Shown in pieces: positions 6,314 through 37,624 of a stretch of 64,000 nucleotides of DNA; the stretch's first letter is position 1, and each line of letters starts with the position of its first letter. Position numbers and translations under genes: made by a program. The stretch lies in assembly GCA_017463225.1 (NCBI GenBank), contig JAFTPO010000045.1, forward strand, positions 1 through 64,000, given 5' to 3'. The notes under the pieces were generated by a model. That model was not told the origin of the DNA. It worked only from the letters and a program-made list of their open reading frames with translations, and searched no databases. Source of the DNA: Lachnospiraceae bacterium (GTDB lineage: Bacteria; Bacillota; Clostridia; Lachnospirales; Lachnospiraceae).

Positions 6314-9157
6314 CTAATCTGATACGACAGTATTACCTGACATTTCAGCTCCTACAAGCTTCTCAGAATCATACATATATGCATATACAAAGCTTGCCAG
6401 CTCCTTTGCATTACCTGAAGAATAACCATACTGTATTACACAGGTAACAGAAACCTCAGGGGCCTCATAAGGAGCAAAGGAAACAAATAATGCATGGTTA
6501 GGTCTAACCTCACTCTCCTGGGCTGTACCGGTTTTTCCTGCAACCTCAACATTAATACGCTTGATTAAATCATCATCTTTTGAACCGTATACAATTGCTC
6601 TTCTCATTCCGGCATGAACAGAAGTCCAAGTCTGAGGTGCAACCTGATCCAACTCATTATGAATAATAGCCGAATTATCTTTTACAAGATTACCCTCATA
6701 GTCTGTTATTTTTTCAATTAAAGTCAGATCATAGCATGTACCACCATTGGCGACTGTAGTAACATATCTGGACATCTGAACAGGAGTATACAGATTTGTA
6801 CCCTGTCCTATGGCACTACGAACAGCGTCACTGTCAGAAATCTCCGGTGGACTCTCTGGAAGCTCAACACCGGATACAGCATCAAAGCCAAACATTTCTG
6901 CATATTTTGTCAAACGACTTAAACCATATAAATCGTTATATTTTTCATTCTTAGTAGCCAGCCAATATCCAACTTGATAAAAATACATATTACAGGAAGC
7001 CTGTATTGCACTCTCTAAATCCATACCTCCGTGACCACCTGGATATAACCAACATCTTGCAGCCGGCTCAATCTCATTAAACTCACCATCACATGAAAGT
7101 AATGTACTTGCATCAATTTCGTTTTCTGTAACACCTGCAACGGCAGTAAGCAGCTTATAGGTAGAACCCGGTGCAATCTTATGCTGTGTTGCTCTGTTAA
7201 TAAGAGGTGTTGTTTTATCATCTAACAATGTAGCATAATACTCTGAATCTACTTCATTTGTCAGATAATTATTATCATAGCTTGGATATGTTACAAGTGC
7301 TAAAACATCTCCGGTATCAACATCTGTTACAACAATTGAGCCGGAACATGGATCCAATGCAAGCATAGCCGGAGTAATCTCCAGATTTTTAATCTTCTTA
7401 GTGAAGAAATCATATGCCGGATATGCACCTGCTACAAATTCTTCATATTCTAAGTCATTTTCTTTATTCAACACACCTTGATCATATAACAGATAAACTA
7501 CATCTTCTCCTGTTATCTCGTCCGATTCTATCATAAATCTAATTACCTGTTTGTCGAATTCAGTATCCGTAGATAAATAATTTAAAATATAATCACAGAG
7601 AAGGTCGTAAACTTCTTCGGTGTCATAATAAGCACTTTCAACATCGAAGCTTGATATATCTATGGCCTCTATACTAATACAATACTTTAAATAATGCTCT
7701 AGTGATGTTCCACCCTCCTGATATGCCATAAATTCTTCATCATTAAGAGGAATCTTTGATGTCATAAGAATATTATTAACATTTAAAAACTCACAAATAT
7801 ACTCAGTATAATACTCATACTCTTCTTCAAGTTCTGAGCTTGGAACCGGCTTTTCTCTTAGAATTACATTTAATTCTCCTAAAACCTCTTCCTTCATATT
7901 AAGAAAGTTTTCATAGGTCTTTTTCTCAAGTACGGAAGCTTCATTTCTCTTCATCATATCCAGAGTAAGGATATTATTATCAAACAATCCAAAATATACA
8001 TCGCATATAGGAATCTGAGCATTCTCCCCATCAGGTATATCATAAATTGCGGTTAGATTAGCCAAAAGAATGGACGCAATTTCCTTCTCTAAAGTATCAT
8101 AGCAATACTTCTGTAAGTCAGCATCTATGGTAAGATATACATCATTTCCAGCCTCTGCATTCTTAGTTTCAACAACCTCTATAGGCTTTCCAAGATTATC
8201 TACATACATAACCTCATATCCGGTAGTTCCTCTAAGCTCACTTTCCATATACTGCTCTATACCGGTTTTTCCCACTATCTCGCTATTACTGTACTGCTTT
8301 TCCTTTGGCAGATCTGCATTATAGGTTTTGAGCTCCTCATCAGATATACCACCTACATAACCTATTATATGTGCGAAATACACAGCATCATTATATTTTC
8401 TGAGGGACTGAACCTCAACATCAATACCAATTAACTCATCACTATACTCTGAAAGAGATGCGTTACTTTCCTCACTGATATCATAAGCAATGGTTACAGG
8501 CATATACTGCTGGTATCTGTTCATCCACAGCTTATATCTGCAGGCAAGAATTTTAAGCCTTTCCTCCTTTGGAAAAAGAGGTGAAATGTCAAACACCTCA
8601 TCACAAAGATAATTTACAACATCCTCAGCTGTAGCATTCTTTTCGTGATCCTCTAAATCATCAAAGCTTGTAACCGCATAGACATCCTTTAAAAAGCTTC
8701 TTAACTGAGTCTCCTTGACCAAAAATTCATACTCTCCACTTTCGTCTAAACCAATATTAAAATCTATGGCAAGCTCATCGTTATTTGACTCTAAAATGGT
8801 AATGGCTTTGAATAAAACCTCATTTTTAAGCTCGTTTTCCCCAACGCCCTTTGCCTCAGCAACAGCTGTTATAGCAGTATCATTACTAAAAACAACGGAA
8901 TAGGCAAGCTCGTTGTATGCCAAAAGCTTTCCATTTCTGTCATATATCTCACCACGAACTGAATCTATAGTCAAAGTTTTCTTGGATTTATATGTGAAAT
9001 TCTCCACATGCTCCTGTCCCTCAACTATCTGAAGAGTAAAAAGCTGATTAATAAGGGCTCCAAACATCACCAAAATCAGGCATGTAATAGGGAATAATCT
9101 ATGCTTCATATACTCTAATACAGTCTCTTTAATTGAATTAATTATCTCCCATATCAT
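6314..9157 (-). CDS. mrdA: Penicillin-binding protein 2 (elongasome transpeptidase) with a large insertion
   Basis: A 947-aa class B PBP, well above the 600-720 aa usual for PBP2. One N-terminal membrane segment (about 20-42) precedes a dimerisation domain with RGEIYDRNG and HIIGYVGG. The transpeptidase motifs are STYK (about Ser664), SCN (about 720) and KTGTAQ (about 872). An acidic segment of about 235 residues lies between the conserved DADLQKYCYDTLEKEI (about 344) and the start of the catalytic core GSIVVTDVDTGDVLALV (about 605). It crosslinks peptidoglycan together with RodA. It follows mreD by 3 bp and uses a ribosome site inside the mreD end. Confidence 0.93.
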   Translation of the reverse strand: MIWEIINSIKETVLEYMKHRLFPITCLILVMFGALINQLFTLQIVEGQEHVENFTYKSKKTLTIDSVRGEIYDRNGKLLAYNELAYSVVFSNDTAITAVAEAKGVGENELKNEVLFKAITILESNNDELAIDFNIGLDESGEYEFLVKETQLRSFLKDVYAVTSFDDLEDHEKNATAEDVVNYLCDEVFDISPLFPKEERLKILACRYKLWMNRYQQYMPVTIAYDISEESNASLSEYSDELIGIDVEVQSLRKYNDAVYFAHIIGYVGGISDEELKTYNADLPKEKQYSNSEIVGKTGIEQYMESELRGTTGYEVMYVDNLGKPIEVVETKNAEAGNDVYLTIDADLQKYCYDTLEKEIASILLANLTAIYDIPDGENAQIPICDVYFGLFDNNILTLDMMKRNEASVLEKKTYENFLNMKEEVLGELNVILREKPVPSSELEEEYEYYTEYICEFLNVNNILMTSKIPLNDEEFMAYQEGGTSLEHYLKYCISIEAIDISSFDVESAYYDTEEVYDLLCDYILNYLSTDTEFDKQVIRFMIESDEITGEDVVYLLYDQGVLNKENDLEYEEFVAGAYPAYDFFTKKIKNLEITPAMLALDPCSGSIVVTDVDTGDVLALVTYPSYDNNYLTNEVDSEYYATLLDDKTTPLINRATQHKIAPGSTYKLLTAVAGVTENEIDASTLLSCDGEFNEIEPAARCWLYPGGHGGMDLESAIQASCNMYFYQVGYWLATKNEKYNDLYGLSRLTKYAEMFGFDAVSGVELPESPPEISDSDAVRSAIGQGTNLYTPVQMSRYVTTVANGGTCYDLTLIEKITDYEGNLVKDNSAIIHNELDQVAPQTWTSVHAGMRRAIVYGSKDDDLIKRINVEVAGKTGTAQESEVRPNHALFVSFAPYEAPEVSVTCVIQYGYSSGNAKELASFVYAYMYDSEKLVGAEMSGNTVVSD

Positions 9158-9160
9158 GGA

Positions 9161-9703
9161 TTACATATCCTTTCTTAACGCCTTAGCCTTAAGTCTTCGA
9201 TTAATATAAACATATAGCTTATAAACCAAAATTGTAAGCAAAGCTGTAGCTAACATCTCCGGAAGTATTATACCGAAAAAGTACGCCGAAAAATCCAATC
9301 TGTTATAAAGGGCAAAGCCTACAACATAAACAACAAAATTAAACACAAAGTCATCTAAAAGAATTATTATAAGTGGAAGCATAACGTCCTCTATCATATA
9401 ATTCTTATGGAAAAAGCCGTTAGTATAGCCAATTATCATATACAAAAACATATATGGTCCCAGCACCTCTAAGAAAAACATATCTACCAAAAAGCCGCTG
9501 AAAAAGCCTACCAGCATTCCCTCTTTTCTTCCTCTCATAAGACCGAAGGACATAGTAAGAATAAGCAATAAATTAGGACTTATACTGCTTATATCATGAA
9601 AACCAAATATAGTTGTCTGTAAAGAAAAATTAATAATAATTAAAATTCCCAGTGTAATTACTCGTCTCATATACAATATCCTTTTAAAGTCATATAGGAG
9701 CAA
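9161..9703 (-). CDS. mreD: MreD rod-shape-determining membrane protein
   Basis: A 180-aa, very hydrophobic protein with five or six membrane segments and a basic C-terminal tail. MreD signatures include the loop SPNLLLILTMSFGLMRGRKEGMLVG split across helices and the GFFSGFLVDMFF helix. MreD is a membrane partner of MreC and RodA/PBP2 in cell-wall elongation. It lies between mreC (9 bp) and the PBP2 gene (3 bp), the canonical order. Sequence conservation in this family is low, so synteny supports the call. Confidence 0.9.
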   Translation of the reverse strand: MLLYDFKRILYMRRVITLGILIIINFSLQTTIFGFHDISSISPNLLLILTMSFGLMRGRKEGMLVGFFSGFLVDMFFLEVLGPYMFLYMIIGYTNGFFHKNYMIEDVMLPLIIILLDDFVFNFVVYVVGFALYNRLDFSAYFFGIILPEMLATALLTILVYKLYVYINRRLKAKALRKDM

Positions 9704-30963: not shown

Positions 30964-33567
30964 CTAATCTAATTTATATACATCTCTTAATTCCTTCTTC
31001 GCACTCTCAACCTGCATTTCAAATTCTGCAGAACTTACTACGGTACAGTTACTTCCTATAGCAAGCTGTCTGATAAGAGAATCAGAGGTTACAACCGTGA
31101 TACTAAGCTTGTCTTTATTAGCATTTGCGAATCTTTCGATATAAGCATCTGCAGTCTCCCCCTCCTTAGTATGAATAACTTGAACGTCTTCCTTATGTTC
31201 ATCTGTACCTTTATTGCCCTTAACCTTATATCCATCGAATACTACTATAAATGGTACATCAATTATAGCTCTATACTCTGACATAATTGATATTAGTCTA
31301 TCCTTTGCTGAGTCTATGTTGATACTGGATAATTCCTTTAGACTATTCCAAGCAAATATAACATTATATCCATCAATTATATAAACCTTATCCTTGGGTT
31401 TAGACGAAACCTTTGACCCCCTGTAATCGAAATAATCCGACTGTCTTTTCTTCCTATAGCCCTGCTTACTATGTTTTACATTAGCATTATAGGTCTGATT
31501 AATAATTTGATCTATCTCCTCAGTACCTATAGAATAGTCAAAGCTATTCCCCTTACCTAACATAAGATTGGATTTTGACTCAAATAAACCATCATCAGCC
31601 TCATCTATAGAAAGATGCATATAATCCTTAACTTCGTACCACGGAACAACAAAGCCGGCTCCATGAGAACAAAAAACGGAGGATGATGGATTTACAACAT
31701 CTTCATCAGGAATATAACCACTTGCTAATACTATTTCCTCAGTATTATGACATCTGTCATAGCCTGCAAACGAAACTGACAGGCTACCATTTCCTTTTGT
31801 ATATGCACTTACATTAACCTGATAATCTCTCATGGTTGCAACAGGGCATTTGCCTGATATAGTTGCAGTATCTCCTTTTATATCCGGTGGATTCATAGTG
31901 CCATGCATATTTTCAATATCCAGCATGGCTTTTCCAACCATATCAGATGGTATATAAAGCAGAAAATCATAATATGGCTCAAGCAATGTACATTCAGCAT
32001 ACATCAACCCATGTCTGATAGCTCTATATGTCGCCTGCCTAAAATCTCCGCCTTCGGTGTGTTTTAAATGAGCTTTACCATTTACAATACTAACTTTAAC
32101 ATCAGTAAGTGGTGATCCTATAAGAACTCCCTTATGAATTCTTTCTAACACATGAGTCTTAACCAGTCTTTGCCAGTTTTTATCAAGTATATCCTCACTA
32201 AGTCTGCTTTCTACAACAATACCTGAGCCTCTTTCTCCCGGTTCTAGCATAAGATGAATCTCTGCATAATGCCTAAGTGGTTCAAAATGTCCAACACCTA
32301 CAACAGCGCTATCTATAGTTTCTTTGTAGCTTATACTACCCAAATCAAATTCGGGTATAAAACCAAACCTTTTCGATATAAGCCCTTTAAGTATATCTAT
32401 CTGGACCTGTCCCATGAGTTTTACTCTTATTTCTTCTTTTGAATCATTCCACTCCAAAGATAGTTCAGGAAGCTCCTCCTCTAAAAGCTTTAGCTTAGGA
32501 TAGATTTGTCTTGAGCTAATGCCTAATTCCTTAGGTACTATAATCTGGTAGCTAATAACCGGCTCTAGTAGCTTCATTCTATTATCTGTATTACACCCCA
32601 ATGACTCTCCTGCCATAACCTGTTGCAACCCGGTTACGGCACAAATATCTCCAGGATACGCTACCTCACACACTTCATATTTTGTACCATTATATCTTCT
32701 GATTTGATTAACCTTCTCTTCATTTATCTTATCTCTTACACGAAGAACACCATTTGTAATCTTCATATGAGTAAGTCTTTCATCCTTAGAATCTCTGGTA
32801 ATCTTATATATCTTCGCTCCAAAATCATTTATATCACATTCATAACATAATTCACTGTATATATCTGCTGTATAAAGTGTAAGTCCAGTTATTAATTCAC
32901 TAACTCCTGTATCTCTTAGTGCAGACCCAAAATAACACGGAAATACACACCTTTCAGATATTAACCTGGTAATAACTGAAAGCTCAATTTCTTCTCCTTC
33001 AAGGAATCTATCCAAAAAGCTCTCATCATCAACAAGCTCTGCATATGTCACAGCCATAAACTCCTGGTCATCATTAGATATGTTATCAGAACAAAAATCT
33101 ATACATCCATTACCAAATTCAGTTTTAAGCATATTTATAATATATGCCTTATCATTATCCGGCTGATCCATCTTGTTAACAAATATAAAGGTTGGTATAT
33201 GATACTGCTGTAGCAATCGCCAAAGAGTTTTTGTATGACCCTGAACACCATCACTGGCACTTATAACTAAAATAGCATAATCTAAAACCTGAAGAGTCCT
33301 TTCCATCTCAGCAGAAAAATCCACATGTCCGGGAGTATCAAGCAGGGTGAATACACAGTTATCTGATTCAAATATAGCCTGTTTAGAGAATATGGTGATT
33401 CCTCTGCTTCGTTCCATATCATCTGTATCTAAATATGAATCCTTATTATCTACCCTACCTAAGGTTTTTATAACACCGGTGTTATAAAGCAATGCCTCAG
33501 ACAAGGTAGTTTTACCTGCATCAACATGGGCCAGTATTCCAATTGTAAGTTTCTTAACATTTTTCAT
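30964..33567 (-). CDS. TetM-like ribosome-protection GTPase fused to a YacP/Rae1-like NYN nuclease domain
   Basis: An 867-aa two-part protein. Residues 1 to about 640 are an EF-G paralogue of the TetM/TetO type: G1 AHVDAGKT (13-20), RGIT, G3 DTPGHVDF (77-84), G4 NKMD (131-134), then EF-G-like domains II-V. Residues about 728-865 form a NYN/PIN-like domain: IIDGYNV with Asp732, VVFDGYK, GETADAYIER and VVTSDSLIRQ, all carrying the expected acidic residues. In Bacillus, YacP (Rae1) is a separate A-site endoribonuclease. The fusion suggests ribosome-targeted RNA cleavage or rescue; tetracycline resistance is not implied. The ATG at 33567 has a GTGGGAT site and is preferred over an ATG nine codons upstream. 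Confidence 0.88.
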   Translation of the reverse strand: MKNVKKLTIGILAHVDAGKTTLSEALLYNTGVIKTLGRVDNKDSYLDTDDMERSRGITIFSKQAIFESDNCVFTLLDTPGHVDFSAEMERTLQVLDYAILVISASDGVQGHTKTLWRLLQQYHIPTFIFVNKMDQPDNDKAYIINMLKTEFGNGCIDFCSDNISNDDQEFMAVTYAELVDDESFLDRFLEGEEIELSVITRLISERCVFPCYFGSALRDTGVSELITGLTLYTADIYSELCYECDINDFGAKIYKITRDSKDERLTHMKITNGVLRVRDKINEEKVNQIRRYNGTKYEVCEVAYPGDICAVTGLQQVMAGESLGCNTDNRMKLLEPVISYQIIVPKELGISSRQIYPKLKLLEEELPELSLEWNDSKEEIRVKLMGQVQIDILKGLISKRFGFIPEFDLGSISYKETIDSAVVGVGHFEPLRHYAEIHLMLEPGERGSGIVVESRLSEDILDKNWQRLVKTHVLERIHKGVLIGSPLTDVKVSIVNGKAHLKHTEGGDFRQATYRAIRHGLMYAECTLLEPYYDFLLYIPSDMVGKAMLDIENMHGTMNPPDIKGDTATISGKCPVATMRDYQVNVSAYTKGNGSLSVSFAGYDRCHNTEEIVLASGYIPDEDVVNPSSSVFCSHGAGFVVPWYEVKDYMHLSIDEADDGLFESKSNLMLGKGNSFDYSIGTEEIDQIINQTYNANVKHSKQGYRKKRQSDYFDYRGSKVSSKPKDKVYIIDGYNVIFAWNSLKELSSINIDSAKDRLISIMSEYRAIIDVPFIVVFDGYKVKGNKGTDEHKEDVQVIHTKEGETADAYIERFANANKDKLSITVVTSDSLIRQLAIGSNCTVVSSAEFEMQVESAKKELRDVYKLD

Positions 33568-33586: not shown

Positions 33587-33613
33587 AAGCCCATAATATA
33601 ATATTATGGGCTT
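33587..33613. repeat. 27-bp perfect palindrome between purE and the GTPase-nuclease gene
   Basis: Arms AAGCCCATAATAT (33587-33599) and its exact complement (33601-33613) flank a single A. It lies 10 bp after the purE stop and 19 bp before the GTPase ATG. No good U-run follows on the minus strand. It may be a purE terminator or a leader hairpin for the GTPase gene. Confidence 0.7.
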
Positions 33614-35932: not shown

Positions 35933-37624
35933 TCAAAAAGGTAAACTATCCTCTACGCAAAGTCTTCCCCACCCTGCAAAAGGATTAGGCACCTTTGAAT
36001 ATCCAAGCAAAGGATTAGCACCTGCTATAAGATAAGCCTTTACCTTTTGTCCATACAAAAAAACATCATTATTTCTTACAATTCCATATTCCATCAGCAT
36101 AGCAGCTGCAGAAGCTACAAAAGGCGTAGCAAATGAGGTACCTGTCACACTTGTATATCCACCTCCAACACTGGCCGTATCAATATCTACACCAGGTGCC
36201 AACATATCAGGCTTTATTTGTCCTGATGCCGAAAAACCCCTTCCCGAAAAAGATGCATAGGTCATAGTACCAGAATCATACGCACCTACCGTAATAACAC
36301 TGTCTGTTGTTGAAGGTATAGTCAGAGTTGTATATTCAAGTGGACTTAAAAATACTATATCCGTAACCGTTGCCCCCTCTGCGGGAAGCCAAATATCAAC
36401 TACTCCGTCAATCACCTCCTCAGATATAAACTCAATAGTCCACACACCCTCCTGAATCATTCCATCTAAAGGTATAATACTTATAAACACTTCATCATAA
36501 ATATTTATAGCAGAAGGTCCAATCCCAAGCATCCTAATATTCATATTATCTGTATCATATATAGCCATTCCCTGACCTGATTTATAGGGTCCATAAGATA
36601 TTCCCACAGGTGATTTTAAAATAATTGATATATCATCCTGATAGCTTTTCCAAAGTTCAATATTTATCCCCCCTTCTCCGTAAGGAATTTGAAATTCGGT
36701 AGCTTTACGTTCATAACTGTTCATAATTATCCGACTATGTCTCCCAGACATTCCATCATTTCCACTTCCTACAACAAATGTTACCTTTGCCATACCAGCC
36801 ACAACATCAATATACTGTTCTAATACAGAATTACCTCTATGATCTCCCCAGTTATTTCCATAGCTCAGATTAACCACCATAGGTACATCATTTTCAATAG
36901 AATGCCTTACAGCAAAATCAATCCCCTGCATTAATGCTATTGTGTCTGTCTCATCCCCTCCTCCTGTCTCAAGTTTTACCACCAAAAGAGAGGCATCCGG
37001 AGTACATGCTGTCACAATTCCCGCAACCGCAGTGCCATGACCGGATACATCAACACTTGGAAAGCTTCCTGCTTCACTTCTCAGGCTACTATTTATAATA
37101 CCGGATCCAAGGTATGTACCAATATTATATCCCACAGGAGGATTGCCAGATAAGCTTTGATCCCATATACCTATAACCTTTGAAACTACACCATCATTAT
37201 TCTCCGCAATAAAATCATTATGAAACACATCTATTCCCGAATCTATTATTGCAACAGTAACACCCTTACCTTTAAGCTGATAATCAAAGTAAGGCACATT
37301 CATACAGGATTCTCTAAATCCTTTTATGTCAGCCCTCTCCTGATTGTATTCCTTGGGCTTCTCAATGTATATTATTCTATCATCCAAAGATACCTGGGTG
37401 ATTTTTTCTTGTGGTATTTCTAGTATTCCAAAATTTCCTAATAGCTCTGTTGCAATTAGTCCATACTCATCTGCTATTTGACTTAAATCACCTGAATATC
37501 GAACAATAAGACTCCAGCTGTTAAACTCTTTACTATATCCAACATTTAAGGACAAACTGTCTTCTCTAAGTCTTTCATCCGTGTCAAGAGCAACATTTAA
37601 CTCAGTTCCCAGCTTTGAATCCAT
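35933..37624 (-). CDS. Subtilisin-like serine protease (peptidase S8), Csp-like
   Basis: A 563-aa S8 protease with no evident signal peptide. The triad is Asp128 (AIIDSGID), His196 (SGHGTAVAGI) and Ser497 (TGTSFATPFVAS); the oxyanion Asn is in VGSGNDG. A beta-rich insert lies between about 320 and 420. A prodomain-like region covers about 1-105. The layout with a long insert and no secretion signal resembles clostridial Csp and related spore or cell-associated proteases. It is divergent from spoIIGA-sigE, which hints at a sporulation link but does not prove one. The ATG follows GGAGTATTAAAGTT. Confidence 0.88.
   Translation of the reverse strand: MDSKLGTELNVALDTDERLREDSLSLNVGYSKEFNSWSLIVRYSGDLSQIADEYGLIATELLGNFGILEIPQEKITQVSLDDRIIYIEKPKEYNQERADIKGFRESCMNVPYFDYQLKGKGVTVAIIDSGIDVFHNDFIAENNDGVVSKVIGIWDQSLSGNPPVGYNIGTYLGSGIINSSLRSEAGSFPSVDVSGHGTAVAGIVTACTPDASLLVVKLETGGGDETDTIALMQGIDFAVRHSIENDVPMVVNLSYGNNWGDHRGNSVLEQYIDVVAGMAKVTFVVGSGNDGMSGRHSRIIMNSYERKATEFQIPYGEGGINIELWKSYQDDISIILKSPVGISYGPYKSGQGMAIYDTDNMNIRMLGIGPSAINIYDEVFISIIPLDGMIQEGVWTIEFISEEVIDGVVDIWLPAEGATVTDIVFLSPLEYTTLTIPSTTDSVITVGAYDSGTMTYASFSGRGFSASGQIKPDMLAPGVDIDTASVGGGYTSVTGTSFATPFVASAAAMLMEYGIVRNNDVFLYGQKVKAYLIAGANPLLGYSKVPNPFAGWGRLCVEDSLPF

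Follow-up and report, generated by a model that had tools for sequence, protein, structure and literature searches.

A translational GTPase fused to a YacP/Rae1-type NYN nuclease, the probable Rae1 of Lachnospiraceae and many related lineages

The window analysed here, a 64,000-nucleotide stretch of a Lachnospiraceae genome, encodes a single polypeptide in which a translational GTPase is followed by a YacP/Rae1-type NYN nuclease domain. We conclude that, in the window's family and in many lineages related to it, this fusion is probably the standard form of Rae1. Genomes that carry it lack the separate gene and have an empty slot in its place, so that the fusion most likely does the job of Rae1. 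For B. subtilis, PMC6613710 presents Rae1 as an endoribonuclease of the ribosomal A site. The architecture itself is already published: fusions of Tet and YacP-like NYN domains in ten Clostridiales are described, and proposed as a resistance mechanism, in Atkinson 2015 (PMC4342817). The window protein has the same domain pair and most likely belongs to that set, as judged from the described pair and not from their sequences. The additions to the account given in that paper are the census with its family prevalence, the mutual exclusion with a separate rae1, the empty rlmB–sigH slot that marks its replacement, the trees and the assignment of the GTPase to a subfamily of its own. A full-text search of the open-licence literature returned no further papers on this domain pair by title.

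Domain organization of the fusion protein

The gene and its parts are located as follows.
30964..33567, minus strand: whole gene, 867 residues plus stop, translational GTPase fused to YacP/Rae1-type NYN nuclease (open frame, Pfam)
32872..33549, minus strand: G domain, residues 7–232, G motifs intact (Pfam, alignment)
31744..32337, minus strand: EF-G domains IV and V, residues 411–608 (Pfam, alignment)
31603..31761, minus strand: conserved tail of the GTPase subfamily, residues 603–655, CHN ... SVFCxHGAGF ... W ... MH (alignment)
31387..31602, minus strand: variable linker, residues 656–727 (alignment)
30967..31386, minus strand: NYN_YacP nuclease domain, residues 728–867 (Pfam, solved-structure match, alignment)

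An alternative in-frame ATG upstream, at 33594, would extend the product to 876 residues. Pfam places GTP_EFTU at residues 7–232 (2.6e-51), EF-G_D2 at 251–323, EFG_IV at 411–524 and EFG_C at 528–608. Domain III has no Pfam match of its own, and its place falls inside the alignment with TetM and TetO, which are the best solved matches of the GTPase part (2.7e-69 to 1.7e-67). The G1, G3 and G4 motif residues and domains I–V of an EF-G-type GTPase are all present. At the C-terminus, NYN_YacP (PF05991) matches residues 730–862 (1.4e-37; 129.7 bits against a gathering cut-off of 24.6), and the B. subtilis YacP chains 5mq8 and 5mq9 are solved matches of this part by sequence (2.1e-18). The sequence-only reading had proposed a TetM-type GTPase and an NYN nuclease in one protein, with the second domain akin to Rae1; the open frame and the Pfam matches confirm the fusion, and the PF05991 score and the matched YacP structures confirm the kinship. 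An assembly artefact is ruled out as its source, as all 34 long-frame loci fetched from other genomes, chosen across families, hold both parts, with the GTPase preceding the NYN domain in each. One alignment (A1) combines the window protein with 29 of these 34 fused proteins.

Active-site residues and the C-terminal segment of the nuclease

The G-motif residues Asp16, Lys19, Thr20, Asp77, Gly80, His81, Asn131 and Asp134 are invariant in all 56 fused rows, and Asp732, Asn735, Asp778, Asp807 and Asp829 of the NYN domain do not vary in any of the 78 fused and 40 standalone rows, which bears out the earlier claim that the G motifs and the acidic residues of the nuclease are intact. The fusion shares its NYN domain and these same acidic residues with Rae1/YacP (5mq8, 5mq9). 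It differs in that B. subtilis Rae1 is a separate small protein, co-transcribed with yacO/rlmB according to PMC6613710, and in that the separate forms keep a longer C-terminal segment.

This segment, which follows the TSD motif, comprises only 38 residues in the window protein, compared to at least 63 in all 25 standalone proteins. Lengths below 60 residues occur in 24 of the 54 fused proteins counted (55 less L122, which lacks the TSD motif) and in none of the 25 standalone ones. The post-TSD segment includes the position of R166P, a substitution in B. subtilis Rae1 that PMC6613710 counts among the suppressors attributed to loss of function of YacO or Rae1. Shortening of this NYN segment, seen in this sample in fused forms alone, would fit the GTPase having taken over docking.

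The GTPase subfamily and the tetracycline resistance proteins

The fusion shares the EF-G-like domain order of TetM and TetO, but differs from them in the tip of domain IV, in an extra conserved tail and in the added nuclease domain. Its identity to Tet(O) is ∼29–30%. Against NF012153, the NCBIfam equivalog model for tetracycline resistance ribosomal protection proteins, it scores 408.1 bits, below the curated cut-off of 775. The domain IV tip loop reads LKHTEGGDFR (residues 501–510) in the window protein and SPVSTPADFR in TetM/TetO. Pro509 of TetM, which we take to be a functional residue of this loop, aligns with Lys502, and the resistance-type Pro509 loop is absent. The tip consensus of the fused rows is KHTxGGDFR, with Lys502 in 54 of 56 and His503, Thr504, Asp508 and Phe509 in 56 of 56 each; among the 17 unfused rows, the same five residues are found in 16, 16, 17, 17 and 16, respectively. 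The tail (residues 603–655) is likewise common to fused and unfused relatives and is absent from the four outgroup rows. A zinc site in this tail (C606/H607 ... C633/H635) was considered and rejected, since a histidine at residue 635 is present in only 41 of the 56 fused and 6 of the 17 unfused rows, and 5 of 56 fused rows have a tyrosine or phenylalanine at residue 633. Judged by sequence, the GTPase is a distinct subfamily that lies below the resistance cut-off and has a different domain IV tip. Of the description “TetM-like” in the sequence-only reading, the domain order stands, whereas the resistance-model score and the domain IV tip speak against it.

Annotation of these proteins varies. 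A copy on an Agathobacter rectalis plasmid is annotated as a member of the TetM/TetW/TetO/TetS family, and the Monoglobus pectinilyticus copy as a translation factor GTPase family protein. Plasmids of Ligilactobacillus salivarius (169–360 kb) bear an unfused GTPase (∼45% identity), and 9 of the 10 listed copies are annotated as TetM/TetW/TetO/TetS resistance proteins. Counts of resistance genes are affected, since some proteins that carry this label are members of another GTPase subfamily, which may be a housekeeping one.

Distribution of fused and standalone forms

PF05991 was searched in overlapping sets of 200 genomes of the family, 146 of the order and 148 of the class. Frames of at least 700 residues were classed as fused and those of at most 300 as standalone, a rule checked in 59 loci hand-picked across families (34 long, 25 short); these frame-length classes are taken as they stand, with some matched stretches flagged for in-frame stops. 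Fusion-length frames proved usual in the window's family, Lachnospiraceae, where they occur in 163 of 200 genomes (132 and 27 from the family listing, 4 from the order listing). A further 13 genomes have frames of at most 300 residues, two of which (G042 and G095) are pieces of a fusion, and 4 have intermediate frames; NYN matches are thus present in 180 genomes, the window's own included, and the other 20 have none. Outside the family, the 201 listed NYN-bearing genomes comprise 80 with long, 118 with short and 3 with intermediate frames. Among 58 families with an NYN match, the long form occurs in 24, the short form in 39 and both in 6. Contigs named Lachnospiraceae and Oscillospiraceae are among those bearing the full fusion. 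Across 299 genomes sampled from the whole phylum, searching with the GTPase (E ≤ 1e-80) recovered 23 rows in 22 genomes: 18 are fused, 2 are unfused and reach into the tail (G669 and G693), and 3 weaker ones, including a second copy in G693, match to residue 607 only.

Two GenBank records named “Bacteriophage sp.” also hold the fusion, MT835514.1 (L257, marked unverified) and MT835563.1. Carriage by a phage was rejected for MT835514.1, whose nine scanned ORFs include addB, a UvrD-type helicase beside the fusion, an MraW-family methylase and a tRNA synthetase; with this content, the record looks like a misfiled bacterial chromosome. IMG/VR contains 29 relatives. Two of these (L260 and L261) are 43% identical over residues 4–652 and lie at the very start of their contigs, L285–L287 are 47–54% identical over short pieces, and the remaining 24 are 25–30% identical.

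Mutual exclusion with, and replacement of, the separate rae1 gene

The genome that contains the window (2.77 Mb, 95 contigs) has no NYN_YacP match over the cut-off other than the fusion. Among the matches listed, a full-length fusion and a full-length standalone protein occur together in 0 of 388 NYN-bearing genomes (361 plus 27 listed). Second NYN matches are short fragments or below the cut-off in four genomes (G248, G220, G309 and G469), pieces of one gene split over two contigs in G076 and G173, and pieces of one domain within a single frame in G130. G466 has two fusions, the second NYN copy of G154 is in a frame of 457 residues close to the start of a contig, and in G039 the second match is a contig-edge piece that cannot be classed.

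At least one of mrnC, rlmB and sigH is found no more than 3.5 kb from the standalone NYN gene in 23 of 25 fetched loci, and all three are in 17; none of the three is that close to the fused NYN in any of 34 fetched loci. The window's own genome has mrnC, cysE, rlmB and sigH in a row, and because rlmB overlaps sigH, there is nothing between these two. Its fusion sits between purE and a vanY-like gene, outside the rlmB–sigH location. In this genome and 30 chosen fusion genomes, the ∼1.5 kb before and after rlmB contain no NYN match (0/31; for L241, the contig stops ∼0.27 kb past rlmB). In 16 of these 31, sigH is beside rlmB with a gap of −74 to 377 nt, which leaves no room for a gene of ∼510 nt, and in the remaining 15 the rlmB–sigH slot is not preserved or not recognised. 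Within genus g309, G395 lacks a GTPase match at 1e-60 and has a standalone NYN flanked by rlmB and sigH, and the fusion-bearing G469 aligns on both sides of this gene as a clean deletion. This replacement of the separate gene lends indirect support to the Rae1-like role that had been proposed for the fusion.

Phylogeny and origin

Trees were obtained by quick searches with SH-aLRT support. The GTPase tree (77 rows) unites 56 fused rows with three unfused ones from Bifidobacterium and Collinsella in one clade (support 98), and 14 other unfused rows are the sister of this clade (86). A smaller tree, built from 25 of the 56 fused rows, 16 of the 17 unfused ones and 3 of the 4 outgroup rows, again nests the actinobacterial rows among the fused ones. 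Constraining the fused GTPases as a clade costs 22.8 log units and is not rejected (p-AU 0.209). The Bifidobacterium and Collinsella copies nested in the fused clade (L123, L124 and L130) look as if the nuclease had been lost after transfer to Actinomycetota.

The unpruned NYN tree has 118 rows, after L024, L025, L203, duplicates and the standalone L042 were left out, and requires 4 changes of state. In it, weakly supported branches place six separate NYN from the window's family among the fused ones, and L256, the NYN of Collinsella, forms a pair with a fused one. The six, L055 and L072 included, form one clade (95) and may have been freed from a fusion. L055 (in G059) and L072 (in G290) are separate genes located away from mrnC, rlmB and sigH. 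Pruning removed six long rows (L256 and five fused ones) together with 18 fused rows from the window's family; in the resulting tree, the remaining 55 fused rows lie on one side of a branch (89). A single fusion event, followed by transfer and loss of the nuclease in Actinomycetota, fits the trees of both domains, a fit and not a proof.

The GTPase without the nuclease

Unfused GTPases of at least 41% identity occur in 20 of 130 genomes with a separate NYN (12/58 and 8/72), compared to 3 of 58 genomes without NYN (0/20 and 3/38), a weak association (p = 0.055, uncorrected for kinship). These counts are without the fusion pieces of G042 and G095, the GTPase of G281 (56% identity, cut by a contig edge) and all matches of 30–36% identity; 3 of the 20 counted GTPases are damaged (G099, G223 and G029). 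A separate NYN accompanies the unfused GTPase in the genomes of Neobacillus, Intestinibacter, G669 and G693, and in Collinsella with a weaker-scoring NYN (91 bits), while in two Bifidobacterium no NYN accompanies it. A strict need for the nuclease is not supported by these NYN-less genomes. As the GTPase is found without any NYN in 3 of 58 genomes and in two Bifidobacterium, it has a job of its own. In the family, 20 of 200 genomes have neither an NYN match nor a GTPase match at 1e-60, and the job of the fusion must therefore be dispensable or done otherwise there.

Genomic context

In the window, purE lies upstream of the fusion, and the vanY-like gene, a TPR gene and hflX lie downstream, all on the same strand. 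The sequence-only reading had pointed to hflX, ∼2 kb from the fusion gene, and to ssrA–smpB–rnr. Neither holds up as evidence: hflX is near the fusion in only 2 of 45 loci, the window and its congener G180, which are also the only ones where the TPR and vanY-like genes accompany it, and tmRNA, smpB and rnr, at 50.2–53.7 kb, are ∼17–20 kb distant. A conserved operon partner was also rejected, the commonest neighbour being present in just 5 of 45 loci. A crude scan for a drug-inducible leader identified terminator-like hairpins upstream in 14 of 50 loci, and none in the window by the same rule. The 56-nt gap between purE and the fusion contains an inverted repeat (AAGCCCATAATATTATATTATGGGCTT) at 33587–33613, minus strand, which spans the alternative start at 33594 and could be a terminator or a regulatory hairpin. 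A subtilisin-type protease with a CspB prodomain is encoded at 35936–37624, 2.4 kb upstream of the fusion; L257 also has such a protease (7819–9441), ∼5.8 kb before its fusion gene. PADLOC returned no families of defence systems.

Possible function

When an EF-G-like protein binds the ribosome, its domain IV reaches the A site. To our knowledge, the route by which Rae1 reaches that site is unsettled. We consider it probable that the fusion is the Rae1 of its lineage in one piece, docked by its GTPase and cutting mRNA at or near the A site. By its kinship to EF-G and TetM, the GTP-bound fusion would dock on a ribosome whose A site is empty or blocked. GTP hydrolysis would then withdraw or rearrange domain IV, a step that may be coupled to cutting, and the NYN domain, tethered by the linker, would cut the mRNA in the A site or close by, as expected from B. 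subtilis Rae1. The ribosome would thereby be freed and the message destroyed. The A site may not accommodate domain IV and the nuclease at the same time, so that cutting may follow the withdrawal of domain IV or occur nearby. MutS2 of B. subtilis, also an NTPase joined to a nuclease domain, acts on troubled ribosomes, although its domains are unrelated to those of the fusion. A bolder version, which we put forward tentatively and would not favour at present, is that the fusion is a GTP-driven ribosome-docking nuclease, in which a GTPase of a distinct EF-G-like subfamily recognises stalled ribosomes and brings the A-site mRNA-cutting domain attached to it into place, and that it arose once and spread widely, with the native rae1 lost wherever it settled.

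The proposal of Atkinson 2015 is one of drug resistance, in which the GTPase removes a tetracycline-like A-site inhibitor and the nuclease adds a new step. We regard it as rather unlikely for these proteins. The score of 408.1 bits against an equivalog cut-off of 775 and the lysine at the position of TetM Pro509 in 54 of 56 fused rows argue against it, and the presence of fusion-length frames in 163 of 200 genomes of the family, together with the missing separate nuclease, fits a core role better. It does, however, draw on TetO and TetM as the nearest solved relatives, on the TetM/TetW/TetO/TetS annotation of the A. rectalis plasmid copy, on the unfused relatives carried by L. salivarius plasmids and on the co-existence of fused and separate forms in 6 of 58 families.

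The two parts might also be independent activities in one chain, the NYN domain doing the usual work of Rae1 and the GTPase a different task on the ribosome, with fusion giving just co-expression or nearness. That the GTPase exists alone, with or without NYN, that the actinobacterial members look like NYN losses and that the linker is variable would all agree with such an arrangement, but we judge it improbable given fusion-length frames in 24 of 58 families, active sites that are both invariant in the examined rows, and a C-terminal NYN segment that is shortened, in this sample, in fused forms only. A role in rRNA or tRNA maturation, proposed earlier for NYN_YacP (cited in PMC4342817), would make the fusion a maturation enzyme carried on ribosomes. 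The separate gene does adjoin mrnC and rlmB, which encode rRNA enzymes; the fused form is away from the mrnC/rlmB/sigH neighbourhood (0/34), and B. subtilis Rae1 is described in PMC6613710 as an A-site endoribonuclease, so that we give this role very little credence.

In the light of the evidence for replacement, the fusion is no longer an oddity within the resistance proteins but probably the standard Rae1 in its lineages. A natural fusion that stands in for Rae1 would name the docking module, and would make the mechanism testable in one polypeptide. If the bolder version is true, ribosome rescue and mRNA quality control would gain a new class of factor in the form of a GTP-driven docking nuclease.
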